NCBI RefSeq assembly: GCF_921293095.1
Contig: NC_060253.1
Span: 71,833,992-71,897,991, forward strand
DNA from: Ischnura elegans
Taxonomy: Eukaryota; Arthropoda; Insecta; Odonata; Coenagrionidae
DNA: 64,000 nucleotides
Direction: 5' to 3'
The notes below the pieces were generated by a model that made no database searches, was not told the origin of the DNA, and saw only the letters and a program-made list of their open reading frames with translations. Each line of letters begins with the position of its first letter. The first letter of the stretch is position 1. Both the position numbers and the translations under genes were made by a program. This document shows, piece by piece, positions 3,224-64,000 of the stretch.

Positions 3224-3435
3224 CACGATAAAATCTTTTCACTTTTTCCCGGCGTATGATGGCGGTGAATTCTTCTCGGGTTTCCATCCGGGTGAGCTCC
3301 ATCTCCATCGCTGCCGACGTTTCGATAGAATCCTGATGACGATAGAAAAGGATTCTATCGAAACGTCGGCAGCGATGGAGATGGAGCTCACCCGGATGAA
3401 AACCCGAGAAGAATTCACCGCCACGATAAAATCTT
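3224..3435. repeat. 14-bp target-site duplication pair of foldback A
   Basis: CACGATAAAATCTT occurs exactly at 3224-3237 and 3422-3435, flanking foldback A on both sides. Confidence 0.75.
3238..3421 (+). mobile_element. Foldback (Penelope-like) retroposon A
   Basis: Nearly perfect 73-bp inverted arms (3261-3333 and 3350-3422) surround a 16-bp loop. The element is bounded by 14-bp direct repeats CACGATAAAATCTT at 3224-3237 and 3422-3435, read as a target-site duplication; the last arm base coincides with the duplication. Across loop and right arm runs CCTGATGACGATAG...CTATCGAAACGTCGG, which has the hammerhead-like pieces CTGATGA and GAAAC. Outward from the core the arm can be read as ETSAAM...TREEF, related to the other foldbacks. 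The duplication length points to target-primed retroposition rather than cut-and-paste. The Penelope-like assignment is inference. Confidence 0.75.
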
Positions 3436-4751
3436 CTCTGCTTTGGCACCGGGCAAGGCTGTTTAAGGCCAAAACTTCCCCGAAGTACGTGGGTACTTTT
3501 GACAAGCATTTGTTAAGAAGGTTTTTAGTGATAATGAATGATTTTGTTAAACATTTATACTAATTATTTACTGATGCACTGAACCTTATAATGAAATTAG
3601 CCTAGATAATTTAGCAAAAATTGGGTTTAAAAAATGAGACATTTTAAGTATAGCACACACTGAAATTATCTTTATTCATCACGAAATGATATATTAACTC
3701 TTTTCATTAAAGTACTTACGAGTGACCAAATTTCCAGATGCTACGATAAATTAAGGTCCCAGCTCATGGTTTCCAAAAACTTGGTCAGATGAAAGCGAGA
3801 AAAAATTGAAGGACATAGGAACTGCTACTTCTCATGCGATAATTGTTATTGCCATATCAACTATCAGAAAAATATTTCGGGTAACGTGGCTAATTTAAGC
3901 ATTCAGGATATAACCAAAACTGTTTCAGGCTAAATTAAGTATCGCAGAGTGACATATTTTCATATTTCATTTAAAAATTTGAACAAAGGGATTTTGCATA
4001 GGTAAATTATAAATCGAATAAGACTTTTGGAACTTAAAAAGACCTTTCCAATTTGGCATTCTTTTCACGAAAAGAACTTCATCCATCCACGCATTTGAAA
4101 TTTCTACAGACAATTAGAATACCCCTGAAAAGCGGAGAACGAACGAAAATCATCTATTAAAATCATTACATATTGCATCGAAAGAACTTCAGCGCAACAA
4201 ACAAAGCAATCACTGTCAATATTACCATTGGCCGCGCAATACAATGAAAATTTAATGTATTAATAAAAACCTTGTCATTCCAGATAATTTGGGCAGATAA
4301 GAAATCAAATGTAAGATAGACAAGAAATATAGCAGCTGGAAAGCACTATCGCAGCAAATGCTTCAATCTCCAATATTTCGTTTTTTTACGAGCAACCGGT
4401 ATAAAAGAATTTACGATTATTGTTCTAATTTGCAAATCAGAGGTCAACCACGACTCAGTCCATCAGAATGACTGTATGAAATCAAAAAAGCATTCTGAGA
4501 TCAAATACGTCATTATCACCTGGAGAAAAAATAAAGGAACTCACTTCGGCGTAAGGGGAACGTCTCTTTAAATACCGCCATAAATTCAGAACGTATAAAC
4601 CTTCGATGCGAAGGTCATTTTAATGAAATAGTGCGGGGATTCCACCTCGAGTATAGCGACGCAATACTCAAGATTGAGAATTCTTTGTGGCATTCTACTC
4701 ACGACAGTCACTGAAGCGTCCCTATTATTCAGAGCCAAGGAGGACAACACG
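3436..4751. other. AT-rich non-coding stretch
   Basis: Nothing recognisable on either strand: only short scattered open frames, with no repeat shared with the rest of the window. Confidence 0.6.
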
Positions 4752-4822
4752 GATGAATTGCCGGTTAAAGCAATCGGCACGCATTGCGGGAATCAGGGTT
4801 CAAACCCAAATAAGGCAAATTA
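4752..4822 (+). repeat. tRNA-like SINE head or decayed tRNA pseudogene
   Basis: A consensus-perfect pol III B box, GGTTCAAACCC, lies about 45 bases downstream of an A-box-like TTGCCGGTTAAAGCA. Paired arms are not good enough for a working tRNA, so this is read as a tRNA-derived SINE head or pseudogene. No tail of the 6.6-kb SINE type follows. Confidence 0.45.
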
Positions 4823-5089
4823 TTTCTTACGGTGCATTTCGCCATCTACGAACGTGCAACACTTCACTTTCTTGCTATGCATATTAAATGACAAAATCCA
4901 GGCACCCAACTTTCGTGCCACGGTTTACACTCAAGATTTTGCTGAAGTTCACTGCAGCGGATAAATTTATACTAACTTCATACTCACTAGCGAAACTAGT
5001 TTCCTACAGTCAATCACACATATGTGTCGAAACTAAAGGAAAAATAATAAAATTAAAGGAATCACATAAATTTCACTAGACTCTATGAC

Positions 5090-5212
5090 CTTACTGCCAC
5101 GCTTTCCTTCCTGTGACCTAACACTTGATGCATTACTATTATTACTTGATAAAAATTGACTTCCTGGAATAACTATTTGACTAACTGTAGCAATAAATAA
5201 TTACACCATACC
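5090..5212. repeat. Dispersed repeat, copy 1 (partner at 6508)
   Basis: A core of CTGTGACCTAACACTTGATG with neighbouring ACTGCCAC and TAAAAATT...GACT blocks recurs at 6508-6634 in the same orientation. No terminal inverted repeats were identified, so the class is unknown. Weaker similarity (TTTTTTCTATGAT) continues to about 5235 here and reappears downstream of the SINE at 6880. Confidence 0.6.
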
Positions 5213-5637
5213 AAAGAAATTTTTTCTATGATCATTCGTGCTCAATAAAACGATAAATATAATGTCAATGTTAGTAGCCATACGTATTTGCAGCATGACG
5301 AATTGAATTTTTAGATATAAAATTCTTGGATGGACCCAAACGATAAGTCTATGAAATGTTTGGATCTATTATTGACTGTCTTTTCAAAACTAACAATAAA
5401 AGAGTCACTCCAAAGAGAAATATTGACTACCAGGAAAGCAAATGTGATCATTGTAATCAGTTAACATGTTCTGCGCAGACTGCCTAGGCAATGCCATTCC
5501 ATACCTGGAGAAAAATTCAATTGTCTTACAATAGTTTTTTTCCAAAAATATCAGATTTGTTTATCATTGCCGCTCCTTTCATCCCTTTCCTTTTAAGAAC
5601 CATTGACTCCTAGGTTTCACCAAGTGGGAAATTATAG

Positions 5638-5681
5638 TCAGAAGACAGTTTCGCTGACATTCCAATCAGCGTCTTCTGGTT
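5638..5681 (-). repeat. Decayed hammerhead-like hairpin
   Basis: CAGAAGAC and GTCTTCTG form outer inverted ends around GCTGA...TCAGC. On the minus strand it reads CCAGAAGACGCTGA...TCAGCGAAACTGTC, the same layout as the cores at 38485, 61950 and 63775. The first core residues are mutated (CAGAAGA for CTGAAGA). It is probably a fragment of a Penelope-like foldback without preserved arms. Confidence 0.45.
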
Positions 5682-6507
5682 GCATTCAGTTTTTTTTAGT
5701 CTTACGTAGAATTATTTTAGCGCCAATTTTTCATTTGAGAAGATGATTGGTTGATTTGCCTCTTTCGTTGAACCCTCTTCCAAAAGAGGTGAAGAGCGTA
5801 TCCATCTTCTTTGTTCATATAATTCGGTTTCTTAGTTGTTTCCGTGGCTTCCTTAACCTAGGAGAGGGCGCGCGGCGAAATGTAACATTAGAAGGCAGGT
5901 CGCGTGTCATCGAAAACCCAAAGAAATTATTTTATTCTCTTTCCTTGGAATGATATAGTTATGCTGTTCTTTTTAAATAAGTCTACTGAATTAAAGAGAT
6001 ATTAATAATTATTCTTATTAAATAAAGAAGAACCATGGGGTGATTTACACCCCGCGCACCCTTTCCCGGGTTAATATGTCTTTCACAATATATCCTTCCC
6101 TCAGCAACGATTAGTGGCGCATTAAACGGGAGAAGGTGCGAGCTTCCCCCATAATTTATGGGAAAATTTAAAAAAATCGATCAATAAGGTAGCTCTCCAA
6201 TGACAGTTTTTATATCGCTAGCTTACAAAAAGCAATGTTTAAAAGGTAATTGATGAATCTAAAAGCCATTTGTCCACGCATTTTCAATGATAGTGACTTG
6301 TCAAGCCACTTCAGACGCATTTTCAATGAGAGTCATCACCAAGGCGCCACTAAAAGTGATGAAACTGCCAAAAACAACGACCTTAATCCGCTGCTAAAAT
6401 AGAATTTTGTGGCCGGGTTTGGTTCTCCCCATGTACAGGGCAGGATCAAAAAGAAGTAGGACTGAATTTCTATAAAGCGAACGGAGTTAAAAATCTTTGC
6501 TACGCCA
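5682..6507. other. AT-rich stretch with small hairpins
   Basis: No gene is supported. A short hairpin GGGGTGATTTACACCCC lies near 6038-6054, and the 14-mer CGCATTTTCAATGA is repeated near 6277 and 6317. Two brief GC-rich patches lie near 5850 and 6130. Confidence 0.55.
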
Positions 6508-6892
6508 GTTACTGCCACACTATCTTTCCTGTGACCTAACACTTGATGCATGAATGTAGTATTACTACTTATAAAAATTTACTCCGTGAAATAAACTTTT
6601 GACAAAATTGTTGCTTCTAAAATCTCACAATTACAGTAATTTAACAAATCCCAAATTTTACGTCAGCCTCGGTGGCGGCGGGGTAGAGTCCTCGCCTGCC
6701 AAACCGAAGGTCGCGGGTTCGAGTCCCACCTGGGAAAGTTACCCTTATCCAGGGCATGGGCGTGTGTGAATGTGTTCATTCATTGCTAATTGTTAATTCC
6801 CCATTATAAAAGGCCGTAAATCTGCTGTTTGCGGGGCAATGGAAATAAATAAATTGTAAAGGCATAAGACACATTTTTTTCTATGATGATTT
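6508..6892. repeat. Dispersed repeat, copy 2, split by a SINE
   Basis: 6508-6634 matches 5090-5212, and similarity seems to resume after the SINE at about 6866-6892 (TTTTTTTCTATGATGATTT versus 5220-5240). This suggests the SINE at 6662-6854 entered an existing copy. The downstream match is short and less certain. Confidence 0.5.
6662..6854 (+). mobile_element. tRNA-derived SINE, full-length copy
   Basis: The head is tRNA-like: an A-box region (GGTGGCGGCGGGGTAGAG) and a perfect B box GGTTCGAGTCC at 6716-6726, followed by CCACCTGGGAAAG. The body has GGGCATGGGCGTGTGTGAAT, TTAATTCCCC and TGCTGTTTGCGGGGCAATGG, and it ends in AAATAAATAAA. Related copies are at 1238, 3131, 56206 (minus strand) and 59575. 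Possible weak flanking repeats are AAATTTTA and AAATTGTA. Transcription would be by RNA polymerase III from the internal boxes, with mobilisation by a partner LINE (family knowledge). Confidence 0.85.
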
Positions 6893-7247
6893 TATGCCCT
6901 GCATGTTCCGCAATGGTAGATGAATGGAACTTTGGTCATTCCATATTCCATTCCAAACGCCTCACCAATATACTTACCCTTTGCCTCAAAAACGCAGCAC
7001 TCTGTAGACACCGTGAAGAGTTTTCATCCCATCCCCCAGCAGCTTAACTTTCCAGCCGGCCAGCGCCCCAGCTACTCTTCTCCTCGCTAGCTTTCTTCCG
7101 GTTCCCCTCCGCTGACTCGATGTCGCAACGATGAAAAAATGTCTTCCGAGTGAAAATGGCGAGCGACAACACCTTTCTTCGTCTCGACCCGATCATCCGC
7201 TGTTTCCCTTTTTACGGTCGTGCTTCGTGTCCATTCGCCTTGTCTGC
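6893..7247. other. GC-richer unique stretch before a transposon nest
   Basis: From about 7010 the sequence becomes GC-rich and non-repetitive. It was interrupted by the hAT element at 7256-8021 and continues at 8030-8130. A short frame begins at ATG 7156 (MASDNTFLRLD...) and could be joined across the insertion, but no homolog, splice site or domain was recognised, so no gene is called. Confidence 0.45.
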
Positions 7248-7265
7248 CCGCTGGACAGGGATGCC

Positions 7266-7562
7266 CAGTGGCGCAGCGAGGGGGAGGGTTTTGGGGATAA
7301 AACTCCCCCAGAGCTCAGAGAAATTTTTAATTTTAATCAATTTTACTTATTTGGATCAGTATTACTTATAGAATAGTGATAGGACTAATCAAATATCCCT
7401 CAGGAAGCCGTAAAACTCGCAATTTTGAACCATTATTCTTAAAATTTTTCTGGAGGGCCCCGCAACTCCTGCTTACCCTGGTGGGTATGCAATACCCCCA
7501 CACACGTAAGTATTAGTTGCGCCTAAAACATCCCCTAGCCTTAATTCCTCGCTGCGCCCCTG
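7266..7562 (+). mobile_element. hAT-type MITE (family 1), nested copy
   Basis: Terminal inverted repeats are CAGTGGCGCAGCGAGG and CAGGGGCGCAGCGAGG. The flanking 8-bp repeats GGGATGCC (7258-7265) and GGGATACC (7563-7570) differ by one base. The interior matches copies at 15231-15529 and 58831-59133, both in the opposite orientation. It sits in the first 10 bases of the family-2 hAT element. About 300 bp, no coding capacity. Confidence 0.85.
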
Positions 7563-7647
7563 GGGATACCGACTTACAAAAAATATTGGGGGGGCCCAAA
7601 CCGGGGATCTTGCCCCAGGAAATTTTATAAGCAGTGAATTTTAAGTT

Positions 7648-7830
7648 ATCGGGCTTTCCACCGGGTAATAAAATCCTTATCCGCCGACGTTTCGATGTCC
7701 ATCAGGGGCCACCATTTCGATGTCCCCTGATGGACATCGAAACGTCGGCGGAGAAGGATTTTATTACCCGGTGGAAAGCCCGAGAACTTTTCATCCAACA
7801 CCTAAGCCGGGAAAACACCCGATTATATTT
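7648..7830 (+). mobile_element. Foldback (Penelope-like) retroposon B
   Basis: 59-bp inverted arms (7650-7708 and 7724-7782, one clear mismatch) surround a 15-bp loop and are followed by a 48-bp tail. It is flanked by exact 16-bp repeats CAGTGAATTTTAAGTT at 7632-7647 and 7831-7846. The sister hAT copy at 10038-10287 lacks the insert and has a single target sequence, so the insertion and its duplication are directly visible. The right arm contains CCCTGATGGACATCGAAACG and reads outward as ETSAEKDF...ARELF...SREN, similar to foldbacks A and C. The core is shortened and lacks a normal second stem. Confidence 0.85.
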
Positions 7831-8179
7831 CAGTGAATTTTAAGTTTTTTTAGGCATTTTAGAAGAGTCATATGATCAACATTAGAACCCTGATCACCCG
7901 AATCTCGATATCTGGAAACTTCGGGGGAAATCGACAAGCCTGACACATTTTTTCTTCACACCCATAACGAATTTTTCAGGGGGTTCCGGCCCCCTCGGGC
8001 CCCATGGAGTCGGCGCCACTGCCGCTGGAACAAGCGACCACAGAGAGGGAAGAGGGAGGTACTCCGACAAGGAGTTTTGGTGTGATCAGCGGTGGTTTAG
8101 GGAGGTAGGCTCGCGACCGCGCGATCCAAAACAAATGCTTTTGGCGAACACTTTTTATGACACGGAATGGAAATTTTTG

Positions 8180-8575
8180 TAACTCTTCGTTAAAACTTTC
8201 GCGGGTATTCGTCATGTTAAATAAAAACTTTTGGGCTATGTCGCCGAGTCAATTTTTGGGTTTCCCCAACGTTTCCCGAACCATGGTCGCTTTCTCAAGG
8301 GATTCTGATGAGGTGGGAATTTATAGCCATATATATATATGTACCCGTGTCAAAGGGTGGAGGGAGGGGAGCGGGAGGTTGGAGGAGTAGGTTGTTGATA
8401 GTTTTTCCGGATTACGGGTTGCCAAGTGCTACTTATTTTAAGGCCGGTGTCCCTGTTAAAATTATTCTTCTCCTCTTTAGTTTTTTCTATGGCCTCTCTA
8501 ACCGGCATCGGTCGGGAAACGTTGGCGCCACCCAAAAATTGACGCGGCGACATAGCCCAATAGATTTTATTTAAC
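8180..8575. mobile_element. Foldback (Penelope-like) retroposon E
   Basis: About 75-bp inverted arms (roughly 8212-8284 and 8500-8577) share CGGGAAACGTTGG and GACATAGCCCAA. The interior holds a (TA)n run near 8328-8340 and a G-rich patch near 8357-8390. Probable 13-bp flanking duplications are ATGGAAATTTTTG (8167-8179) and ATGGAAAATTTTG (8576-8588), with one mismatch; the right arm overlaps the duplication by about two bases. The left arm read outward contains NTRESFNEEL, reminiscent of TREEF/TRETF in the other copies. Near-identical peptides (MLNK..WAMSP) appear on both strands because the arms are inverted copies. Confidence 0.65.
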
Positions 8576-8659
8576 ATGGAAAATTTTGGTTCATTTTATA
8601 ATATTACCACCAGATTATTGCTTAAATAAAATGAAAAACATAAAAAAATACTTTTTTTC

Positions 8660-8866
8660 CAAAACACAATAAAAATGTGCTTAAAAAGTAAAAAAATAAG
8701 CTTTTAATCACTCGGAGAATAGGGTGTGAGCGGTGATTAGGTTTATTAAATGAGTGTCGAGGAGGTTAATAGGTGATTAAGGATTGCAACCCATTCTTTA
8801 TTCTCCGAGTGTAGAAAAGCGTATTATTTACTATTTAGTGCATTTTATACTATTTTTGAAAAAACA
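8660..8866. repeat. Palindromic MITE-like element, copy 1
   Basis: A 13-bp perfect inverted pair CACTCGGAGAATA (8709-8721) and its complement (8799-8811) sits inside a longer AT-rich imperfect palindrome containing AAAAAGTAAAAA. A related copy occurs at 46480-46690 with the same outer context (GCTTTTAATCACTCGG). Boundaries are approximate and no target duplication is clear. Confidence 0.6.
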
Positions 8867-10029
8867 AGTTAATTGATATTATTTTATTTATATTTTTCAA
8901 ATATTGTACAAAATATGCGTCATTTCGAAAAAAAAACGTAATTTCCTGTATATCATAGTAATCACGATAAAAATAAAATGTAGGAATATCAAAGTACTAA
9001 CTATTCAGCTATTAGCAAAAAAATCTGGCATTTGAGGTCAAATCTGGTATCCTGAAAATGGCGCTACGATCGGCTCAAGTATCATAAAAATACTTAATTC
9101 ATAAATTAAAAGGTTTGAATTATCCATATTCTTAATACTCTTATCCTACGTTGAAACCTCGATGGATGCTGAGTGAAATTGTATAACATTCACGAAAACT
9201 ATTCGTTTTGAATACCTAGTGTAATCGCGAACTTACCATCTCTAAGCAGTATATGGCGAGTTTTTACAGTACAAACTGCTATTGCCATTTATATTCGATA
9301 GAGAGGAGTCAATATGGTGACACCAGTATGGAGATGTTAGCGGAATGTTTATTTTTTTGCAGAAATTTCATTTTTGGAGTATCAAGCTTGGTCACTGCGT
9401 TCATGATAGTGTACAAAGCCATTATACGCAACACTTCGGAATAAAAGCTTGTCACCAAGATATCCCATAAATTTCACTCTTTCGGCTATGGCCACTCATT
9501 AAACCCCCACCCAACAGGTCTCCCAACGTCATCTCCACTTTATTCACGAGAAGTTTGAAGGCTACGCGGGTGATTCGAAGAATTGCCTGGGCAATAAAAA
9601 ACATGAGGGAGGAAATTCGGATAACCTTCGGATAACCTATCCTCTTCGAACTCAGCATTTTCCTCTTCCCCGGCGAACAAAACCAGCCCCTAGCCGCAAA
9701 AATAAAGAAATATGGGAGGAAATTCTGCCTACTGATTTCTTTAATCCTTTTACAGGAGACTTGGAGAAAAATGACCGTTCTCTTCCGTTAGACAGTACTT
9801 TATGACCAGCTAACTTCAACGCAAGAGTTACAAGAATTACTGTAATGTTTTATAACCATCATTAGTCATCGACCCAAAGATTGGTTTTGACGCAGCTCTC
9901 CATTCCTCTCTCCTGTTCGCTAGTCTTTTCAAAGCGACGTATTTATTCTCTTATACATTCATTATAACCTGTCCTAAGTAACTCATTCGGGGCCATCCCT
10001 TGCCTCTCTTCCCTTCCACTTGTCCTTCT
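8867..10029. other. AT-rich non-coding stretch
   Basis: No gene or repeat with a partner elsewhere in the window was found. The short frames at 9253-9444 and 9452-9658 have no recognisable domains. Confidence 0.6.
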
Positions 10030-10037
10030 ACACGACT

Positions 10038-10287
10038 CAGTAGCGCCGACTCCATGGGGCCCGAGCCCCCTCAAAAATTCGTTATGGGTGTGAGGAAAAA
10101 TGTGCCAGACTGGTCGATTTTCCCCGGAGTGTCCAGATATCGAGATTCGAGTTATCAGGGTTCTAATGTTGATCATATGACTCTTCTAAAATGCTTAAAA
10201 AACTTAAAACTCACTACTTATAAAATTTTCCGGGGCAAGATCCCCGCATTGGGCCCCCCCAATATTTTTTGCAAGTCGGCGTCCCTG
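10038..10287 (+). mobile_element. hAT-type MITE (family 2), copy A, empty of insertions
   Basis: Ends CAGTAGCGCCGACTCC and CAGGGACGCCGAC (complement) are flanked by ACACGACT (10030-10037) and ATACGACT (10288-10295), an 8-bp duplication with one mismatch. It is the uninterrupted sister of the element at 7256-8021 and gives the pre-insertion state for both nested elements there. About 250 bp, non-coding. Confidence 0.85.
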
Positions 10288-10295
10288 ATACGACT

Positions 10296-15110: not shown

Positions 15111-15196
15111 TACCAGAATACTTCTTCAATACTCCATGTAAACTTACCTTAATCGGAAGAATACTTTAACAATACAAGACTTGATCGTAATAAGAC
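15111..15196. repeat. Dispersed repeat (CTTAATCGGAAGAATAC), copy 1
   Basis: About 86 bp, from TACCAGAATACTTCTTCAAT through GACTTGATCGTAATAAG, recur nearly unchanged at 16001-16088 in the same orientation. A weaker match (ACTCCATGGAAACCTACCTT) occurs at about 26670-26725. Class unknown. Confidence 0.65.
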
Positions 15197-15230
15197 GTGC
15201 TCATACATACATTAATAAGCTATTTACTAA

Positions 15231-15529: not shown

Positions 15530-15537
15530 ATTACTTA

Positions 15538-16606: not shown

Positions 16607-16629
16607 GTAAGGCTAGGATGAGTGCTGCA

Positions 16630-16902: not shown

Positions 16903-16949
16903 GTGCTGCATGCCTGGTTTCGAATCGCCCCGTGCCACACACCCTGGAG

Positions 16950-17167
16950 TTGATGTATGATCTTAGGTTTTCCCGGCGCATCAGTTGCAGAAAAGTTTCT
17001 CGGGTTTTCCACCGGTTGATGTCGTCCATGTCTCCCGACGTTTCGATCCGCGACTTGCTGATAATCCTGATTCGGAAGATCCCCTGAGGATGATCAGCAA
17101 GTCGCGGATCGAAACGTCGGGAGACATGGACGACATAAACCGGTGGAAAACCCGAGAAACTTTTCTG
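16950..17167 (+). mobile_element. Foldback (Penelope-like) retroposon C
   Basis: Almost perfect 75-bp inverted arms (16988-17062 and 17093-17167) enclose a 30-bp loop, preceded by a leader GATCTTAGGTTTTCCCGGCG. Flanking 10-bp repeats are CACCCTGGAG at 16940-16949 and 17168-17177. The core reads CCCTGAGGATGATC...GGATCGAAACGTC, a CTGANGA...GAAAC layout with a four-pair GATC stem and one unpaired base. Outward reading gives ETSGDMDD..RWKTRETF; on the minus strand this continues into MRRENLRSYI. Closest relative in the window is foldback D. Confidence 0.8.
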
Positions 17168-17177
17168 CACCCTGGAG

Positions 17178-18420: not shown

Positions 18421-18479
18421 AAGCTGCGAGAGGGAGGTAAAGGAACATGAAGGCTCATAAGTATGGAGGGAGGGTTGCT

Positions 18480-22513: not shown

Positions 22514-22670
22514 TGGAATGAAGGCCGAAAACACATGGAAATTTTTCACCTGAACCGGGAATAACTCTGGATAGCTCGGTGGTCTGAGCATCTGCCCGGA
22601 AAGCAGAAGGTCCGTGGTTCGATTTCCGGTTCGGGTGAAATTTTTCCATTTGTTTTCGGCCTTCATTCCA
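22514..22670. repeat. Inverted repeat with tRNA-like SINE head in its loop
   Basis: 47-bp arms (22514-22560 and 22624-22670, about five mismatches) share GGCCGAAAACA and the TGGAATGAAG end. The loop and right-arm start carry a tRNA-like head: A box TAGCTCGGTGG, anticodon-arm-like TCTGC...GCAGA and B-box-like GGTTCGATTTCC (22568-22640). The body that normally follows a tRNA head is therefore also present upstream in inverted orientation. Confidence 0.7.
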
Positions 22671-26200: not shown

Positions 26201-26204
26201 GACT

Positions 26205-28750: not shown

Positions 28751-29036
28751 CAGAAGAATGATGACGATCAAATGGATCGACCGAGTTAGTAATGAGGAAG
28801 TCCTAAGCAGAGTGGAGAATAGAGAAGCCTCAGAAGACGAAAGAACCTAATAGGCCATATTTTAAGAAATATTGGCCTGATGAAACCATCGTCGAGGGAC
28901 AAGTGGATGACAAGAACGGAAAAGGAAGACTTCGAATATAATAAGAAGGATGTGAAAGGGAAGAAATACATGGGTGTGAAAAGATAAGCTGACATGAGAA
29001 TTGAGTGAAGAGCTGCGTCAAACCGATCTTAGAATT
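28751..29036 (+). mobile_element. LINE C-terminal tail, decayed
   Basis: Conceptual reading gives RRMMTIKWIDRVSNEEVL, then after frame breaks HILR, DETIVEGQV, KNGKGRLRI, KKYMGVKR, ADMRIE and RAASNRS before a stop. This is the typical end of arthropod LINE polyproteins (DRVSNEEVL...GHVLR...MKRLADDR..WRAASNQS). Several stops and shifts mark it as dead. Foldback D inserted at its 3' end. Confidence 0.75.
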
Positions 29037-29215
29037 TACGATCTTAGGTTTTCCCGGCGTTTCAGGTGCAGAAAGGTTTCTCGGGTTTTCCACCGGTTGA
29101 TGTTTTCCATGTCTCACGACGGAAGGTCCCCTGAGGATGAACAGCAAGTCGCTGCTCGAAACGTCGGGAGACATGGAAAACATCAACTGTTGGAAAACCC
29201 GAGAAACTTTTCCGT
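29037..29215 (+). mobile_element. Foldback (Penelope-like) retroposon D
   Basis: Leader GATCTTAGGTTTTCCCGGCG and arms (about 29070-29120 and 29163-29212) match foldback C, but the inner left arm (the GTTTCGATC...GCTGAT part) is deleted, leaving a 42-bp loop. The core CCCTGAGGATGAACAG...CTGCTCGAAACGTC is kept. Flanks TCTTAGAATT (29027-29036) and TCTTAGGATT (29216-29225) are a likely 10-bp duplication with one mismatch. Reading outward: ETSGDMEN...WKTRETF. Confidence 0.7.
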
Positions 29216-29225
29216 TCTTAGGATT

Positions 29226-37760: not shown

Positions 37761-38427
37761 AAAATGATCCTACTACACTCTCTTTGGGTGAACGGTTACC
37801 GATGAAATATAAGAAGAGAACTAACGATTTATTGCTATGAGAATTAATTTCTACGAGGCTAAGTTCTAAATTTTCACTCATCCATCGAAATTTAGTCAAC
37901 TAGAGCAAAAAATTCACGATTCCTCGCCTCCAGTGACACCCTAAGAAGGAGTGAAAATATAATCAGTATGGAAAAGCACGAAGACAGCATTTAACTACAA
38001 GCAATACCTTATTTTATAAAGCCATCATTAAGAGCAATAATTCAACACACAAACGAGAACGAGAGGTATACAACTATTCTTAAGTATTGGCTCAATATAT
38101 CACCAATGACGGGAACTTACAAATATGTCAGGAGTAATAAGTGATACAAGTCATAATAATATTATTCCTTATGATGAATGAGTAAAACAAGTTTTTCACG
38201 ATACAAGATCCAATAAAAGATCAAGGAGAGAGCAGGCACATGTTATTGAGGGCAGGACCCAGATCGCTTTAATCCATCCCAGAGGGTATCACACGATTGA
38301 ACCTCTGCTAATTTCATGCACTGTTAAGAGTAGAAAAAAACGAACACACTGTGATTGCGAGAATGAAAGAGATTGGTCGACTTGCTGAGTAGCCCTAGAG
38401 AAAGTTAGATCTAAGGTTTCCGCGGCG
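37761..38427. other. AT-rich non-coding stretch
   Basis: No feature recognised before the left arm of the split hairpin element. Confidence 0.55.
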
Positions 38428-39227
38428 TTCCTCCACATGAGTCTCGGCTTTCGGGCGTTCCTTCGCGTTGAAATGTCCATAGGTGACGACAGTTTCTCCA
38501 GCCGTCCTGCTTGCGTCTTCAGGTCAGAAGTAGCGATGATTAAATTTGGCCGTCTTAAGCCTGAATCACACGATCATTTTTTTTCGTCGCGAAAGTGATC
38601 ACTATCGCGAGCACTGCGCAAAATGATCGTCGGCGGCAATTGTTTTTCGCGATGGCGATCGCGATGTGGATTCCCATCGCTATTTTTCATCACTCGTCCG
38701 GTCGCTTTTTCCGTCGCTAAAACCGTCACTAAAACCCCATATTAACCAATCAGATAGCATGACCGTATGGTGTGATTGCAGCGCCACGTTTGACAAATGT
38801 GGGAACGGCATAAATAAACAAACACGCTATATAATTTCGTGATGTGGGTCCTATGACAACGAGCTGTGATATTGGAAATGATGCGAAAAGCGACGGCGGG
38901 AGTGACCGTGTGATTCCGAAAAATGATCACGAGAGCGATTGCTTTTCGCGACGGGATAAGTGATCTCGATAGTGATTACTTTCGCGACGAAAAAAAATGA
39001 TCGTGTGATTCAGGCTTTATGTAGGTACTTTGGAGATCGGAGGTCGGTTCTGATTGGTTGGTTCTCAGGTGGGCTCTGATTGGTCATTGATTTTGAAGAC
39101 CCTTTTCCATGTGTTGGCTAATGTGTAGCCGTCTTTTGGAGACGGCTCTAAGAGGGCTCTAAGACTAAGGTGCTATGGACATTTCAACGCGGAAGAACGC
39201 CCGAAAGGCGAGACTCCTCAAGGGAGT
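38428..39227. mobile_element. Penelope-like hairpin element split by a MITE
   Basis: About 55-bp inverted arms (38428-38483 and 39170-39227) share GGACATTTCAACGCGG (right) and its complement, plus GCCCGAAAG. Next to the left arm on the minus strand is ACCTGAAGACGCAAG...GGAGAAACTGTCGTC, the same core layout as foldbacks at 61.9 and 63.7 kb. The interior is expanded by a Harbinger-like MITE (38558-39016). The right arm reads outward as MDISTRKNARKARLL. No convincing target duplication (only AGAGATT at 38368 and 39232). Confidence 0.7.
38558..39016. mobile_element. Harbinger-like MITE with TTA duplication
   Basis: 53-bp terminal inverted repeats (38558-38610 and 38964-39016, two mismatches) start AGCCTGAATCACACGATCA. 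TTA flanks both ends (38555-38557 and 39017-39019), the 3-bp TWA duplication known for PIF/Harbinger elements. Subterminal repeats of AAAATGATC and TTTTCGCGA recur inside. 459 bp, no transposase. It is younger than the hairpin element it splits. Confidence 0.75.
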
Positions 39228-56108: not shown

Positions 56109-56205
56109 TTCGGTGGAAGCACTGAAGCTCTATCTGAATGAAATTTTGGGGTTGGGAAGTTCTAATATCGAAGATATACCGATGCGTAATAACAATAATT
56201 TTGCC

Positions 56206-56358
56206 TTTATTTATCAATAGAATTAAGGACAATACAGTCCTTTCTCACAATTCAGTTGATGAACACGCACATGCCCTAGATGGGAGAAAATCCACCCAGG
56301 TGGGATTCGAACCCGCGACCCCTGAATTAGCAGGCGAGGTTGATGCCGATGCCTAAGG
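56206..56358 (-). mobile_element. tRNA-derived SINE, minus strand
   Basis: On the minus strand the head has TCGCGGGTTCGAATCCCACCTG with a perfect B box (56303-56313 on the plus strand), then TAGGGCATGTGCGTG and an end near GATAAATAAAGG. Same family as 6662-6854, somewhat shortened in the body. Confidence 0.75.
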
Positions 56359-57424
56359 GATAAAGGTGAAAATAACCATATGACTTTTACAGCCAACGTA
56401 TTAGACTCTTTTATTTATTAGATTTTCCAAGACTTATTTGTTACTTTTACCAACATTCCATGAGTTCCAGATGCAATAAAATCCCATGACTTAAGGGTTT
56501 TCCAGAGGATTGGACGCCCTATAAATACAGCTTTATGATTTTCTATGCCACAGAAACCCTCCTCCTTTTTGCACTTAAACTCGAGGAGAATTCACGTCAT
56601 TCGAGGCTAATCCACTCCCATTCAACCGAGTACGCTATCCTTAGAGGCGAGGTATTACCGACGATTTTCATACCACAGACCTTGCCACGTAGTTTAGTGT
56701 GAATGCCTTGTCATTCTTAAGATTATCGCCGGCGAAGCTGCCTGAATTTTCCTCCTTTATGCCCTTTCCTGGAGACGGATTTATCACTCCCGACCCTGAG
56801 AATAACGACGCAATATCCGTCCCTTGAAAATATGAAAATGTGATCACGTAACTCGTGAATTAAAGGAGGGGCTCCCACTCTCTTTCCTATCCATTTCTTT
56901 TTCGTTAAAAAGAAAATAATTCTTCCGCCGCTAAAAGTCGTCATCGGGCTTTCAATCGGTTGCGTTAAGAGTATTCACTCATGCTCGACCGGTCTTTTTT
57001 CGTGGCATAACACTCGTGTTAAACTTATTCCATATCCTAGACATTTCCGGGGTGTATTATGCCATTGTCATCATTTTTCTGTATCCTCATATAATAAAAT
57101 ATTCATATTAATGCTTTCAAAATTGAGACACTCTCACATTCGAGGCACAGAAAAATGCTATCTAAGGCCTATTCTGTAGGCATTGAAAATTTAAAGGTTA
57201 TACCATGAGTTTAAAACTAGCAATTTGCCGCGAAAAGAGGAAAATTACGATAGATCAATAACGACAACATGACGCAATTCAATCGATGGCGTAAGGAGCA
57301 TCTACGTTTCGCGTCGGCATACGATTTTTATTTCTATAAGTTCGATAATAAAGTTAAATGGCTATATTTATGCTAATTAGTTATTAAAATTAATTAATAA
57401 ATAACATGAGGCAAATATCCACCA
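56359..57424. other. Non-coding stretch
   Basis: No gene recognised. Slightly GC-richer at 56560-56960, with a short minus frame and no domain. Confidence 0.5.
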
Positions 57425-57500
57425 TGAGAGACTCCCGAGCGACCGAGTAAGTAATGAGGAAATGCTGAAAAGAATCGGAGAAAAGAAAAAACTAATTTTA
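57425..57500 (+). mobile_element. Short LINE fragment
   Basis: Reads SDRVSNEEMLKRIGEKKKLI, the conserved phrase that follows the YGAETWTL region in many arthropod LINE polyproteins (compare the 28751 copy, DRVSNEEVL). Only about 25 codons are recognisable; both sides are unrelated or decayed. Confidence 0.6.
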
Positions 57501-58822
57501 GGATTGTTTACTAATGCTAATGAGAAACTCCCAATTATGCGATTTAATGTTGTAAATAAAGTAGATACGCAAGCGCGTGGCGCTAGCTTCCATTCGAATA
57601 CTTTACATACCATTGAAAGCTTAAAGCAGTGATCATTAATCATACAAATTAAGCTAAACGATATAAATTCCTTTCTTTTTAGTCCCCGAAAAATTACCAT
57701 TTCTTACCTCCTCAAATAGAATACATTTGGAAGGCCTTATATTACGAACTTCCAATCCTTTTAAGCGGTAATTCATTCTGGAGGTGACTGTTGAGGAGGC
57801 AGCGCTCAAAAGTGCCGTTAGCTATCCCCCGAAAGGCCATTCAACCTTAACTGACTCTCAAGTTTTACATAACAAGAAGGTTTAAAGGGGCGACGCCCAA
57901 GCATGGCCAAGGATACAGAATGTAACCTCTGTAACAATCTTGCGATGCAAACAATGCAGAGGAAGGCATTCTATTTCCCAAAGGTTGCAGTTCCAGATTC
58001 TATGCTTGACCAGTAAAATCGGAAGGTGCAATTATAGGGGAAGTCGGTGTTCATCTTTTTTGAACCATTATAGTAAGTAATTTTTTGCCAGCATCAAAAG
58101 ATTACATATCCTTATAAGTAAACGCTTATGATTTCTGTCGCTCCGTCCATTTCTTCCAAGGGTGGTTACTATTTATCTTTGTTTTGTACCCAATTTGCAT
58201 TTTTTCTCACAGGTAAATGCTTGTTAACTTACTTCTCTATTCATGCTTAATACTTTAAAATTTATACATGATACTTCTTATTATGCCTCATATGTAATCT
58301 CGGAAAATTGACCTTGAAATATGCCTATTCGGTAGTTACTTGCAAAACTGCCTTAACGATCGAGTTCAACTAAAAAAAAGCGTGATCCCGAAGTTTTTAC
58401 CACCCTGATTTAATGAACCTTATCAACAAAATAACTCCTAAAAAATTGTGGCAAACCCGTCATTTCACTTTTTAAAAAATTGACTCGATGAGAAAGGGAG
58501 AAAGCTATCTCATGTTTGTTAAAGTGGTGTAACACTCGTCCACACAAGTTAAATATGTTAGATGAATATCGCTTCGTTAAAAGCGGAATATTAAAAATTA
58601 AGTATAAAACACTAAGCTGTTTTGGATCGTGTGTTCAGGATGATTAATAGGGCTAGTGACGCTAGTGGTCCAGGAGAAGCTTCCCATGACTTCTCATGAA
58701 AAAGCTTGGCTGGGACCATGACCCTTATATACCTGTATGGCTGAGACCAATATTTTTCCCTAGCAACGCACGTAGTCTCTCCGTGGCGGAAGGAAGGGTC
58801 TCATGGCGACTGAAACGAGGCT
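57501..58822. other. AT-rich non-coding stretch
   Basis: Nothing recognised. A GC-richer patch lies around 57770-57960. Confidence 0.55.
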
Positions 58823-58830
58823 ATGACATT

Positions 58831-59133
58831 CAGGGCAGCTAGGAATTAAGGCTGGGGGGGTCTAGGTGCAACTATTACCGAGGTGTGTGGGGGTGTGGAA
58901 TACCCACCAGGATAAGCGGCAGGTGCGAGATTAATAAATTGCGGAATTTTAAGATACACGGTTCAAAATGGTGAGTTTTACGGCTTTCTGAGAGATATTT
59001 TATTAATTCTTACACTATTCTATTAGTAATATCAATCCAATTAAGTAAAATGGATTAAACTTAAAAATTTATCTGAGCTCTGGGGGGGGGGGGTTTAACC
59101 CCCAACCCCCCCCCCCCCCTCGCTGCGCCACTG
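58831..59133 (-). mobile_element. hAT-type MITE (family 1) with perfect duplication
   Basis: Flanked by exact 8-bp repeats ATGACATT (58823-58830 and 59134-59141). The right end is CAGTGGCGCAGCGAGG (complement); the left end is decayed (CAGGGCAGC). Interior closely matches 15231-15529. Near the right end a run of 12 G (59082-59093) faces a long C run (to about 59119), a hairpin-forming homopolymer expansion unique to this copy. Confidence 0.87.
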
Positions 59134-59141
59134 ATGACATT

Positions 59142-59574
59142 TATTCTCGTCGTAAGAGGCCCGATGGTGGGTGGCTCATGATAACAAAATAAAGACTATA
59201 AATTACGCCCCAGCCTCATTCCCTCCCACAAAAAGCAAAACTTTGGCCACTTTCCGGGAGATGATTCTTGCCGGGCAACGAAGTCACAGACCTGACCGCT
59301 CAATCCGTAACCGACGAAGCGGAAAGAGACGACCGCTGAAACTGGATCGCTCCAGCTGCCATCATCATCATTTCAGTTCGCAGAAATGTGTCTCGGGTTC
59401 TGCGGAGAGAAAAAAAGGGATGGGAAAAGGAATCACTTTAATAGCTGCATCAAAAGGATAACATAGAAATCAAACTGTAGATAAGGAAAATGATCCGTGA
59501 TAGTGGTTTCCAAGTAACTCTTAAGAGACCAATCCTGAGATGGATAGGAGAGGGTGGACACAGGAGTACTAACT
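59142..59574. other. Non-coding stretch
   Basis: A 96-codon frame at 59171-59461 has no recognisable domain. It is GC-moderate and basic in composition; no start context or splice support. Confidence 0.45.
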
Positions 59575-59750
59575 GCCGGCCTCGGTGTCTGCCGCTTGTC
59601 TACCCTGTTTGGAGTCCCCCCTGGGTAGGTTGTCCCTCTGCAAGACAGGGGTGTTTGTGATCGTTCGTTCGTTCATTATTATTCGTTAAAGTCCTCCGCT
59701 GTAAAGGGCTTATATGCCCTGTTTTCGGGGTAATGAAGATAAATAAATAA
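59575..59750 (+). mobile_element. tRNA-derived SINE
   Basis: The head is damaged (CCGGCCTCGGTG...GGAGTCCCCCCTGGG), with the body CTCCGCTGTAAAGGGCTTAT, CCTGTTTTCGGGG and an end ATAAATAAATAA. A short GTTCGTTCGTTC run lies near 59663. Related to 6662-6854 and closest in the tail to 3131-3213. Confidence 0.7.
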
Positions 59751-59881
59751 TCATTGGACGCCGCCTCAAGTGAAAATACGATATGGGTATACAATGGTAC
59801 TCGGTACTACAATAAAACATAACTATCCAATCGAATTTTGTGTACCTTTTGATCTTTTAACTCAATTTTTAAATGTTAAAT

Positions 59882-60090
59882 CGGACCGGTTCGCGCCGGA
59901 AAGACCGTCGGCGTGGACGCAGGAGCGCGCCGCTGCCTTAAAAATGCGCCCGCCGCAATTTTAATTATTGTTTTTGCACTCCTTAGTCTTTGGAGCTAGA
60001 TTTTTTAATATTTAGGGACAAATTCGCGCCGTTAAAGTCCATCGGCGTGGACGCCAGAGCGCGCCGCACCGCTAACAGTTCACCCGAACG
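59882..60090 (+). repeat. GC-rich tandem duplication, ~133 bp period
   Basis: TTCGCGCCGGAAAGACC and GCGTGGACGC.AGAGCGCGCC at 59889-59930 recur at 60023-60066, each followed by a second CGCCGCC-containing block. CpG-dense in an otherwise AT-rich region. Confidence 0.7.
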
Positions 60091-60691
60091 CCGCCGCCAA
60101 CGAATTTTTCCTTTTGGTGCCTACGTCTAGCAAGAAGTGCCCTCACGGCGTGCTCAACACTCTATCCACCACCCAGTCCGATGCCCGTCTAGTCTACGTC
60201 ACCGTCCCGTGAACTCTACTGCATCCCGGCCAGTCTCTCTGCCTTTCGCCTTATCCCTCGTTCTAGCTTCAGCTCGGCTCACCTAACGTTGCCCTCTCAC
60301 AAGCCACGTTCTCTCCCAAACCGGAATCCCTCTCCTCCCGCGGAAGAAGAGCGGGACGATGGCTCTCTTCTGACCCATCCTCTCTGCCTTGTTGCTACCC
60401 CGCGTCCTCCGCGGTGCTGTGGCCTGGGACTTCGAGTGAGAGCGTTGACCGCATGCCCTGACCTCAACGTGTCCGCCCTGCTCTTTCTCCGTTTTATTCC
60501 CTCTTCTTCTTCTTTATTATTGGACCCGAATCGGCCATCCGATACCGACTCACCACTACTCCGAACGAGTTAACCCGTCCACAGGTCGAATTAAATAGGT
60601 CGAAAAACCAGAATGATGATGGAAAAGAGCAATAAAAGGTATGGAGGAATTTGGGAAAATAATAATATCAAACATATATTATCGTGAACTC
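60091..60691. other. GC-rich, pyrimidine-rich block
   Basis: Continues the CpG-dense sequence to about 60560. A plus-strand frame (60289-60573, 94 codons, proline/serine/leucine-rich) looks compositional rather than coding. It might be a CpG island or an unrecognised repeat. Followed by AT-rich sequence. Confidence 0.4.
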
Positions 60692-60703
60692 ATTGGTTCT
60701 TTT

Positions 60704-61207
60704 TTATTATTATTATCTTAGCATTCTGGCAACCTCGCCTTCCTTTATGTACTTCCCTCTTCAATTCACAGTAAGGCCAACCCCTTTCGTTTGATCTAAA
60801 ACTCCTATTCTCTTTCTTCCTTTCCCTCGTTTACCCCACATTCTACCCTATGACACTGTTTTCAACATTCCCTCCCCTCTAAGTACTCGCTCCATCCATA
60901 CCTTCTATCTCCTCCGTATTTCATTTAGAAGCTGCTTCTCCTCCCCACCATGTCTATCACTTCATCGTTCCTTCTCTTCTCCGTTCACTTCGCCTTCTCC
61001 ATTCTTCGCAACACCCACATCTCGAACGCCTCCAATCTTATCTCGTCCTCCATTATAAGTGTTCATGTTTCCGCACCGTAGAGAGCTACACTCTATATCA
61101 GACTCTTCACTCTTTTTCTTTAAACTCTTACATAACGATCCTCTCATAAGCTCCTTCCTGTTCATGAGCGCCTCCTTTGCTAACGAAATTCTCTTTCTGA
61201 TGTCCTT
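60704..61207 (-). mobile_element. 5'-truncated LINE, C-terminal part, minus strand
   Basis: Read on the minus strand: DIRKRISLAKEALMNRKELM, then (shifted) SVALYGAET, RLEAFEMWVLRRMEKA, VGEEKQLLNEIRRR, KVWMERVLRGEGMLK and KRGKGRKRIGVLD, ending with a (TAA)n-like tail at about 60700-60716. These phrases are the post-transcriptase region of arthropod LINEs. Stops and frameshifts make it dead. Candidate flanking repeats are ATTGGTTCTTTT (60692-60703) and ATTGGTCCTTTA (61208-61219), ten of twelve matching. Same subfamily as 26205-26457. Confidence 0.85.
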
Positions 61208-61219
61208 ATTGGTCCTTTA

Positions 61220-61892
61220 GACATTGATAAATGAACAACAAAAAATAATGTATTTACGTAATCAACGAATAAATAAAACAATAAAAAATGGATATGTAAT
61301 AATGGATGATTTGTTGAAAACTAACGACTGAATAACAAACGGTGGTCCTACTCTTCCCCCCAAATATTCGTTCGCTCCACAACCCCCTGGAGAATATCAC
61401 GACCCGCTCCTAACGGACCCGCTACAGAGCGCTCCATGATACAACGGAGTTTATTTCTTCCTTTTCCAACTTAAATTCCCCCTTTCGCTTATGTTAGTGT
61501 ATGCGCTGCAGGCGGATGCCGAAGTGAGATAAAATTGGTAGATTAAGTGGGAAGCGAAGGCATTATAAGAAGAGGAAAAAAAGGGAGTGTTGCTCATGAA
61601 AGGCGTGGGGAATGACCCCAGCGGACTGAGCAGGAGCCTGTGATATAACGGGTCCATTAAATGAACAATGGAAGGGAAGTGGGAGGAGAAGTTCCAAAAT
61701 TCCACAGAAAAAACAGGCTAATTGAACTGAGATGAATGTAATAAACGAAATAATTATCGAGGGAAAGGAAATTGACATTGGATAGGCAACAAATACGGCT
61801 CTAGCAGTAGTGAACTACTCATGACTGTGTGTGTGACAACTATACACAAAGGTTAAGCCTCATGATGTTGCAATAAGTACGGTACCACGTAA
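61220..61892. other. Non-coding stretch
   Basis: No gene recognised; minus frames at 61451-61778 have no domains. Confidence 0.5.
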
Positions 61893-61903
61893 AATAATCG
61901 CTT

Positions 61904-62122
61904 TTGGGCGCAACTAGGTTTCCGAGTTGTCCTCCGCGTCATCTCTGTGATGCAAGTTTCGCCGGCGTCGCATCGGGCGTCTTCAGGTTTGAAATGTTTA
62001 CTTCAAACCAGACGACGCCTGCTGCAACGCCGGCGAAACTGTCGTCACGAAGATGAATCGACGCGGCGGACAACCTGGAAACCTAGCTACGCCTACTGCA
62101 CCACTTCGTGGAAGCCTCCATC
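61904..62122 (+). mobile_element. Foldback (Penelope-like) retroposon, 61.9-kb copy
   Basis: About 90-bp imperfect inverted arms (61906-61993 and 62001-62093) around a tiny loop. It is flanked by exact 11-bp repeats AATAATCGCTT at 61893-61903 and 62123-62133. Both arms carry CGCCGGCGAAACT, and the left arm on the minus strand has the fuller ACCTGAAGACGCC core. The right arm reads outward as AGETVVTKMNRRGGQPGNLA and ends in PLRGSLHQ, close to the 63.7-kb copy's PHRESLHK. A defined 3' end next to the duplication supports retroposition. Confidence 0.8.
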
Positions 62123-62133
62123 AATAATCGCTT

Positions 62134-63711
62134 GTATCATATAGAGCAATTCATGCCATTTTTTTCTAATATTTTCATTTTTTTCATTCTCTACAGAGCC
62201 TCGAAAGCGTCATTTTTATGTGGTTAAATGTTATTCTGGTTACACCGTCCAACATTCTGAAAATCGATAGTCTTATCAAAGAAAATCAAACAATAGAAAT
62301 TTAAGACTGCTGACCTTATCTTTCTTCATTGGCAAAATACGTATGATAACACATTAATCCAACCCAAGCATCATATTTCAAGTGCGAATCAGTCATTCCA
62401 AAATTTCGTATTTAAATTAATGTGGGAAAATACGCTCCTCTTGCGAGGAAATCCATCAAGGTTTACCGCTGGCTAGTCCGTTTTCGTTTCCAAACGCCGT
62501 TATGACATTAAAATGATGAATTTTTGCCTCCGCATGGCATTTTCCCCGAGTCATTTCTTCCCTGTTATTCTCATTTTACAGTATTGACTCAATTTCATTT
62601 ATTTTCGTACGCTTCATTTACTTCGTCATCTTCTGAAAATACTTCTCTTTGTAACCTTTTTCCTTATTAATTCCTATACACCGATTAGGTGAGCAATGAA
62701 TGCAACACGAGATAGCAGCAAGAAACGTACTCTTGATTAACACCTTGATTTACCAACATTACCGGCAAATTAAAAGCAATTTTTTAGGAGAAAAAAATCA
62801 TACAAAGCACATTTAATTATCAGTACTTTTCTAAGGATTTATCTAAGGATTTCCTTAAGCAGGATTGAGTAACAGAGTAAAATCAAGATACATAAAAAAT
62901 ATGATCTTCGAATAAATATCTCATTAGAAAGAAAAGGATACCTTAAATTTTATGACGAAACTCGTGTGTTTATCGCAGGCATGCTATGAACTGCGCCATA
63001 ACGGATTTTTTTACGTGCGCCGGGAACTGATGAGAAGGCAGGTTCAAGTATGGTAGATTGACAGTACAACACCCCAGGATACTTCCACTCTCACAATACT
63101 AAAAGAAGACGGCTGAAAGGGAGAGTCCAGATTAAAATGAACGAGGATTTTCTATTCGGCACCTAAATATGCATTCTGGTCGCCGTTATATCTAAGACTG
63201 TCATCAGAGTCTCATGAAATAAAAAAAGTTCTAGCCAACCAATTGAAAATAAGATTTTTAAGCTAATTTATTTCAGCCTAATTTTTTCCTGCGTAAATAC
63301 AAGAAGGCTATTTTTCACGTAATAGTAAAATATTCTCAAAATGATAAGACGTAAAAACGTCATCCTGCCATGAAAATTTTACTCTGTCTAAGATATTGTA
63401 ATATGAAGGTGTATTACATCGCATGAATCTTAGAATTTGTGAACATGTATTCATGCTACGGAAAAAAAATAAAATTGAACAGTCGAAGAGTCAATAATAT
63501 TCATTCACAGCTTCAAAATTCTCACTCAAGAGACGTGATTTATGTATATTTTTTAATGATAAGTAACCGATATCCTACATTTCGTGCGCCTTTGTTTAAA
63601 TATCTTAAAATGAAAAATTATACGTCAATACAAGAATATCACCCAGCCAATGATCTGAAGTTACACTTATGGTAGCAAAATTTTCATGATAAGATAAAAT
63701 AAAAAGTAAAT
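62134..63711. other. AT-rich non-coding stretch
   Basis: Nothing recognised. The frame 63439-63675 has no domain. Confidence 0.55.
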
Positions 63712-63722
63712 ATCTAAATAAA

Positions 63723-63938
63723 GTTTCAGCAGACTGGTTTTCGGGATTACTACCGCGTAGATTCACCTCTGCAGACGACAGTTTCGCCGGCATTGCAGCA
63801 GGCTTCTTCAGGTCAATGAAGTGGAGATCCGTGGTGTCGCCCGTCTCTAATATCGCCCCGTCGGAGGCCGGTTTCGCGGTATTAATCCCGAAAGCCAGTC
63901 TGCTGAATCCTCACCACACCGCGAAAGCCTACACAAGG
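63723..63938 (+). mobile_element. Foldback (Penelope-like) retroposon, 63.7-kb copy
   Basis: Outer inverted arms (63723-63757 and 63875-63910) share GCAGACTGG.TTTCGGGATTA. The element is bounded by exact 11-bp repeats ATCTAAATAAA at 63712-63722 and 63939-63949. On the minus strand at 63774-63816 is ACCTGAAGAAGCC...GGCGAAACTGTCGTC, the clearest CTGAAGA...GAAAC core of this subtype. The interior of about 58 bp between core and right arm is GC-rich and not duplicated in the left half. The right end reads NPESQSAESSPHRESLHK. Confidence 0.8.
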
Positions 63939-64000
63939 ATCTAAATAAATTTTTAGCCCTCCAAAGTCGGAGGTAATTTGTTAACATTGTGACTCGACGA

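Follow-up and report, generated by a model that had tools for sequence, protein, structure and literature searches.

The window analysed here, a stretch of 64,000 nucleotides from chromosome 8 (positions 71833992-71897991) of the damselfly Ischnura elegans, contains eight hairpin elements, all of whose palindromes we located and whose arms measure 33-83 bp and are 82-98% complementary. A preliminary description had presented them as a set of foldback retroposons, and its inventory holds up well: the inverted arms are there in all eight, seven have flanking direct repeats (remeasured at 14, 16, 13, 10, 14, 11 and 11 bp), and the CTGANGA...GAAAC-like core is present, decayed at 8180 as described. 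The window holds 5 instances of the pattern CTGANGA(8-25 nt)CGAAAC, where 100 shuffles predict 0.09, and by eye the core is degenerate in the 7648 and 38428 hairpins and decayed in the 8180 hairpin. What the hairpins represent is another matter. They are probably insertion events of Penelope-like elements (PLEs), each composed of two complementary DNAs (cDNAs) of the 5' start of an mRNA joined head to head, and not a transposon family of their own. The features are as follows, the tail being an outer extension of about 30 nt on one of the two arms:

3224..3237 (left) and 3422-3435 (right), target-site duplication of hairpin 1, CACGATAAAATCTT, 14 bp exact
3238..3421, hairpin 1 (palindrome 3260-3423), tail arm left (reads on the minus strand) with its outer end at reference position 135, tail-less arm right (reads on the plus strand) with its outer end at reference position 112
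3333..3364, plus strand, hammerhead-like core CTGATGA..CGAAAC of hairpin 1, in the tail-less arm
7632..7647 (left) and 7831-7846 (right), target-site duplication of hairpin 2, CAGTGAATTTTAAGTT, 16 bp exact
7648..7830, hairpin 2, tail right at about 7790-7830
8167..8179 (left) and 8576-8588 (right), target-site duplication of hairpin 3, 13 bp with 1 mismatch
8180..8575, hairpin 3, old, arms 8213-8285 and 8506-8578, tail left, decayed core
16940..16949 (left) and 17168-17177 (right), target-site duplication of hairpin 4, CACCCTGGAG, 10 bp exact
16950..17167, hairpin 4, tail arm left (tail about 16950-16985), tail-less arm right
17084..17115, plus strand, hammerhead-like core of hairpin 4, in the tail-less arm
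29023..29036 (left) and 29212-29225 (right), target-site duplication of hairpin 5, 14 bp with 2 mismatches
29037..29211, hairpin 5, 76% identical to hairpin 4, tail left
29131..29162, plus strand, hammerhead-like core of hairpin 5
38408..39218 (borders approximate), hairpin 6, arms 38439-38482 and 39173-39216, probable tail left
38557..39017, unrelated inverted-repeat element of 461 bp resembling a miniature inverted-repeat transposable element, with 59-bp arms (95%), splitting hairpin 6
61893..61903 (left) and 62123-62133 (right), target-site duplication of hairpin 7, AATAATCGCTT, 11 bp exact
61904..62122, hairpin 7, tail right at about 62094-62122
61956..61986, minus strand, hammerhead-like core of hairpin 7
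63712..63722 (left) and 63939-63949 (right), target-site duplication of hairpin 8, ATCTAAATAAA, 11 bp exact
63723..63938, hairpin 8, tail right at about 63908-63938
63781..63811, minus strand, hammerhead-like core of hairpin 8

When each of the seven duplications was compared with 60 random right flanks, none (0/60) scored as high; the weakest of them is that at 29037 (score 8, against 7 for the best random flank), and at 63723 the 11 exact positions were stretched by the script to 19 with 2 mismatches. The best repeat flanking the 38428 hairpin, 9 bp with 2 mismatches, lies at chance level (11/60 random flanks). In all seven duplication-bearing hairpins the sequence extends asymmetrically beyond the palindrome, by 22-41 nt on one side against -5 to 3 nt on the opposite one, and the 38428 hairpin has a one-sided extension alike by sequence, its ends not being fixed by any duplication. 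By eye, the extension beyond the palindrome in the window hairpins often includes TTTTCCCGGCG or a relative of it.

Judged by sequence, the hairpin arms most likely derive from PLEs of this genome. Each arm is laid out as the hammerhead-like core followed by the first ~100-130 nt of a PLE open reading frame (ORF), so that after the CTGANGA..GAAAC core the translation runs MTIEKDSIETSAAMEMELTRM(E/K)TREEF.. in frame, which bears out the link to Penelope-like elements that had been proposed. At one locus (L155) an arm extends beyond the tail, and the ORF it enters there, ..REKVKSYITSLYGEDIYRSTQEFA, aligns with the N-terminus of the anole PLE (score 45, equalled by 1/1000 shuffles). The outward-reading TREEF/TRETF phrases of the preliminary description belong to the N-terminus of the PLE ORF and not to a product of the hairpin; we read its coexisting subtypes as 5' ends that come from distinct PLE lineages of this genome. 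A one-sided tail of 30-40 bp, a PLE hallmark, is found in the damselfly hairpins. Nucleotide similarity to the anole element, Poseidon of Anolis carolinensis (PAc), is weak for some of the hairpins, with 12, 6, 1, 1 and 0 of 500 shuffles as good for 61904, 16950, 7648, 29037 and 63723, respectively, and is not significant for the 3238 family against the anole PLE RNA (68/500 single-letter shuffles as good). We had also considered that the arms might correspond to the C-terminal end of the ORF, and dropped this since PMC11167929 puts the motif at the ORF start.

As to sources of the arms, a search of the 1.72-Gb assembly (110 contigs) for the GIY-YIG endonuclease (EN) gave 149 matches from 150 scored of 2199 candidates. 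A combination of reverse transcriptase (RT) and GIY-YIG domains, the suggested hallmark of an autonomous source, was recovered from other PLEs of the same genome, the ORFs at L095 and L093 scoring above cut-offs for both RVT_1 and GIY-YIG; for the lineages of the window we found EN domains with window-hairpin-like ends downstream (L051 and L056), the longest matches being 74-82% over 43-103 nt. At two loci (L121 and L151; translations) the arms reach upstream of the promoter into ORF-like C-terminal sequence, as transcription reading through from a tandem copy further upstream would produce.

Two further observations concern the PLE content of this genome. Another PLE-type hairpin of a different lineage (L094:5292-5486) lies less than 10 kb from a long open frame with GIY-YIG, and at about 104.88-105.57 Mb of G000:C9 the GIY-YIG matches repeat at offsets of 442.6-442.9 kb, a spacing suggestive of either a segmental duplication or a duplicate made in assembly.

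The genome proved rich in very short, complete insertion records in which both ends, the duplications and the centre are visible. Searches with hairpins 1, 2, 4, 7 and 8 returned from 271 to 1,552 first-look candidates per query, of which 40 were scored each time: 1235 for query 3224-3700, 1127 for 16959-17174, 271 for 7646-7835 (including longer pairs beside hairpins), 1552 for 61904-62126 and 1433 for 63724-63940. All of those scored matched for the 3238 and 16950 queries, and these two lineages were read closely, 39 further copies of the former (family A, set A1) and 20 of the latter (family B, set B1) being taken with the hairpin query. For each family we also read 20 tail-selected loci; only outer tail-arm sequence entered into their choice, which was therefore independent of the second arm. 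A third sample comprised 15 long inverted pairs located via the GIY-YIG endonuclease.

In both families and in the long pairs, the two arms are 3'-anchored copies, set head to head, of an RNA stretch that begins near the inferred mRNA start. Throughout families A and B the outer ends are constant and the centres variable, the point at which left and right arms meet being unique in nearly all loci. Because nearly every centre is different, each hairpin is a separate insertion and not a copy of a hairpin; this is where the notion of a set of foldback retroposons multiplying as hairpins fails, at least in these two families. Four loci (L012, L018, L019 and L027) do have a common junction, which sits at a 4-nt microhomology, ATCG, and they look like independent insertions of 5'-shortened copies. 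The idea that the hairpins are non-autonomous Penelope derivatives therefore stands as to their origin, while as units they are better described as independent by-products of an autonomous element. A DNA-transposon foldback is not indicated either, since both duplications and centres are variable, in place of a fixed duplication and intact units; no search for a transposase was made.

Target duplications of at least 11 bp (n=74, families A and B together) span 11-16 bp with a mode of 13, the counts being 3, 15, 29, 18, 6 and 3 for 11, 12, 13, 14, 15 and 16 bp, respectively; duplications of 7-10 bp were also found and are kept out of this count. Swapping the right flanks between copies produced at least 10 bp in 1/400 and 0/400 cases. 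The variable lengths recur across the genome copies of both families, among which neither fixed-length nor absent duplications emerged as the rule, and their earlier attribution to target-primed reverse transcription is upheld. The 74 duplications are 70% AT, a modest excess given a genome GC content of about 38.5% (PMC9975421). Overlap between duplication and element end averaged 1.4 nt on the tail side and 1.9 nt on the other in 72 cases, with 0.33 nt expected from one free extension, and these means are inflated by the longest-match search.

The most regular feature of these insertions is their tail. Exactly one arm carries the ~30-nt tail in 105/105 resolvable head-to-head pairs. Tail-containing queries could miss dimers with no tail, and the zero-tail class is addressed solely by the 20 pairs that were not chosen by their tail, namely 13 long pairs plus the seven duplication-bearing window hairpins. 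By sample, one tail was counted in 39/39 dimers of set A1 (those with the second arm inside the sequence read; L047 left out), where the outer ends fall at +121 to +129 in the tail arm and +92 to +102 in the other, and in 21/21 hairpin-query dimers of family B (+123 to +132 and +97 to +107). Among the tail-selected loci, of which 9/40 fall outside the resolvable set, the counts are 10/10 for family A, with the second arm at +88 to +100, and 17/17 for family B, with the second arm at +96 to +108 except at L130 (+64). The long GIY-YIG-selected pairs gave 13/13 by eye, and a string count found one tail in each of the 15, including L078 and L092, which were not settled by eye; five further window hairpins with a duplication have one tail each. 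Overall, the distal and proximal start sites lie at +121 to +129 and +88 to +102 in family A, and at +123 to +133 and +96 to +108, with the one exception at +64, in family B.

At two loci, runs of 19 and 31 A residues (L090:1237-1255 and L091:1147-1177) separate the target duplication from the point where the tail cDNA begins and are absent from the target copy on the other side; they may be untemplated additions made before reverse transcription starts.

Two start sites are already known from the anole PLE, in which the hammerhead lies at the junction of the pseudo-long terminal repeat (pLTR) and the ORF, reverse transcription begins at two adjacent sites in the 5' ORF, the tail is the stretch between them, and both target strands are cut and extended (PMC11167929). 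For the damselfly we propose that the protein with GIY-YIG and RT domains would make a staggered break with 3' overhangs of ~13 nt, and that both 3' ends would prime on one RNA, one at each of the adjacent internal start sites. The two cDNAs would lengthen next to each other on the one template. Each reverse transcription would then reach the 5' end of the RNA or fall off earlier, and the two cDNAs would be end-joined head to head, leaving a polymerase-theta-like signature. A plain mRNA from the pLTR promoter would yield cDNAs of only ~100-130 nt, and hence hairpins, while read-through RNA from an upstream tandem copy would give longer inverted dimers carrying the ORF. With one 3' overhang per start site and the sites ~30 nt apart, exactly one tail would be expected in every two-armed insertion. 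Our estimate is evenly poised as to the stronger proposal, that Penelope integration is a symmetric single-RNA reaction of which the tail is the obligatory signature in every two-armed insertion.

One alternative, which we consider unlikely, is that each 3' end primes on an RNA of its own with the start site free. It agrees with the finding that both strands are extended in vitro without differing in start site (PMC11167929), but a free choice would give one tail in at most half of the insertions, against the 13/13 resolvable long dimers and 7/7 window hairpins with a duplication observed, and it does not account for the common haplotypes of the two arms. These were followed in the long pairs at 13 loci, where at most the final 700 nt of each arm were compared. 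Variants common to several loci agree between the arms in 33/37 locus-instances. With the outermost columns and those with gaps dropped, the eight loci of long-pair family II represent five haplotypes and their arms are always equal, which 0/5000 permutations matched. Gene conversion between the arms is an alternative cause of this agreement, though 17 one-arm private variants persist in the long pairs. Arms of the short hairpins had no variant present in both arms of a copy (0, versus 28 and 25 in one arm), and for that reason one RNA and two are not distinguishable there. A variant with two RNAs of the same locus plus an asymmetric ribonucleoprotein would still fit.

A different possibility is self-priming, in which a single cDNA (or else an antisense RNA) would fold back and serve as its own template, the copy ending ~30 nt short, hence without a tail; priming of this kind on an antisense template has been proposed in PMC3846280. 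Short inverted microhomology at the palindromic centres, identical haplotypes in both arms, and an outer end that is sharper on the tail arm than on the tail-less arm would all suit it. On the other hand, it needs one arm to be contained in the other, and in 48/85 dimers it is the tail-less arm that extends further inward (5'), by 5 nt or more; the tail arm does so in 19, and the two lie within 4 nt in 18. Each arm of the 48 has sequence missing from the other, so neither is a fold-back copy of its partner, and at L022, L036 and L042 the non-nested arms can be seen by eye. The split was unchanged with exactly trimmed ends, and the 26 tail-selected dimers divide in the same categories as 11, 7 and 8. 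Five loci (L045, L047, L135, L151 and L156) were excluded from the 85 individually, and the limits of the script removed L121, L155 and any locus lacking a second arm. Self-priming is contradicted as the general mechanism and improbable in our view; it may explain part of the 19 dimers with the longer-reaching tail arm and part of the 18 that are undecided.

Least credible, to the point of being very improbable, are self-propagating foldback families or families resembling short interspersed elements (SINEs), in which hairpin loci would be transcribed and re-inserted as units, since the high copy number (1235 and 1127 first-look candidates for queries 3238 and 16950) and the one junction that four loci have in common are outweighed by centres that nearly all differ, by the position of that junction at a short microhomology, and by the consideration that a hairpin without the ORF and the internal 5' context could presumably not regenerate itself.

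How two cDNAs might be joined is suggested by the centres. End joining of the polymerase-theta type leaves microhomology and filler sequence at its junctions. Among filler-free junctions with exact ends, microhomology of at least 3 nt was found in 18/29 cases in family A and 2/7 in family B (20/33 and 3/12 by a looser, untrimmed measure), where random junctions would give fractions of 0.07 and 0.05, respectively. Fillers of 8-70 nt match nearby sequence in 7/16 cases (p 0.03 or less), the longest such match being 22 nt (L133). The junctions thus look like the products of polymerase-theta-type end joining, and template jumps by the RT would look alike. One centre (L134) holds a 60-nt filler for which neither the element nor its flanks gave a significant match; the RT may have jumped to another RNA there.

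The inner ends of the arms point to the start of the RNA. In the tail-selected loci of family B, 13/20 tail arms and 11/18 of the others stop within -3 to +4 of the A of GGCATTCGG, a sequence located 31 nt below the TATA box TATATATA (L121). Family A has TATATAAA at the same 31-nt distance (L047) and a looser cluster of ends. In family B these ends likely mark the transcription start, and the cDNAs would be run-off products.

Several points weigh against the proposal of two cDNAs primed on one RNA at paired start sites, or limit its reach. The in vitro study detected no difference in start site between the strands and so does not predict the rule of one start site each (PMC11167929). Sets A1 and B1 came from a hairpin query and are biased towards the shape of that query, which is why no conclusion is drawn from the excess of 48 over 19. 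At 4/40 tail-selected loci (L125, L129, L153 and L157) a single tail arm is separated from an apparent duplication by 4-30 nt of unrelated sequence, which indicates that two cDNAs are usual and not obligatory. The microhomology rests mainly on family A, filler-free junctions being scarce in family B (7/37), and the p values of the filler matches are uncorrected. Four discordant cells in the long pairs, all in the two outermost, target-adjacent columns, were set aside; long-pair family I, with 2 haplotypes in 5 loci, gives P = 0.10 by itself; and the matching of arm haplotypes could also have come about through later gene conversion or from two RNAs of one locus. Ends near +1 are less frequent in set B1 (4/21 tail arms and 13/21 others) and in family A (3/20 and 4/13 in its tail-selected set A2, 8/40 and 15/39 in set A1). 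The source evidence for the window lineages consists of the EN domain plus similar ends at L051 and L056. Finally, Rfam hammerhead models matched neither the window nor the six loci searched, permissive thresholds included; a minimal PLE hammerhead version without helix III has been described (PMC6155905). The microRNA matches given by the Rfam searches are taken as artefacts of the palindromes.

The kind of element is already known. Like PAc, the damselfly elements carry their hammerhead-like core where the ORF begins, start reverse transcription at two neighbouring internal sites with a tail of 30-40 bp between them, and have AT-rich targets and an ORF with an N-terminal LYGE motif; unlike PAc, which is described as tandem with the tail optional in a fraction of copies, they are head to head with exactly one tail in each resolvable pair, and their dimers often comprise the 5' RNA end alone (PMC11167929). 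Pen2a_Av and others of the rotifer Adineta vaga also have inverted pLTRs with a 31-bp tail at one of them, and head-to-head is the commonest arrangement there, with a 9-bp target duplication for Penelope; the Adineta dimers were ascribed to self-priming, which the damselfly data contradict as a general route (PMC3846280). Retrozymes too are small non-coding retroelements with hammerhead motifs (PMC7229834), but theirs are canonical and their RNAs circular, whereas the hairpins would be inverted dimers of a PLE mRNA 5' end, a structure that, as far as sequence can tell, does not suggest a circular RNA intermediate of the retrozyme type.

A further comparison is with long interspersed elements (LINEs). 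In LINE twin priming two primers form at one break and the second anneals inside the same RNA, so that the 5' part is inverted. The hairpins resemble this in having two primers and an inverted product, and differ in that their arms are anchored at adjacent, dedicated start sites.

What appears to be new is the strict pairing of the two start sites together with the evidence for one RNA. We found no paper in the open-access literature searched that reports either, the available parts of PMC11167929 and PMC3846280 included, and the Penelope passages of PMC12910113 hold nothing on insertion structure. The in vitro study of a PLE calls the later steps of insertion 'yet to be validated' (PMC11167929), and self-priming was the model available from genomic data. 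As a general route self-priming is contradicted by the damselfly records, in which each arm goes with a start site of its own and which point to a single RNA for each insertion. Reverse transcription that begins internally, close to where the ORF starts, with cDNAs of only ~100-130 nt from plain mRNA, would suggest why PLEs need tandem copies. A symmetric single-RNA integration, if true, would amount to a kind of target-primed reverse transcription different from those of LINEs and R2.

Elsewhere in the window, positions 22565-22637 hold a tRNA-like match of 35 bits, above the Rfam gathering score, which is possibly a tRNA-derived SINE.

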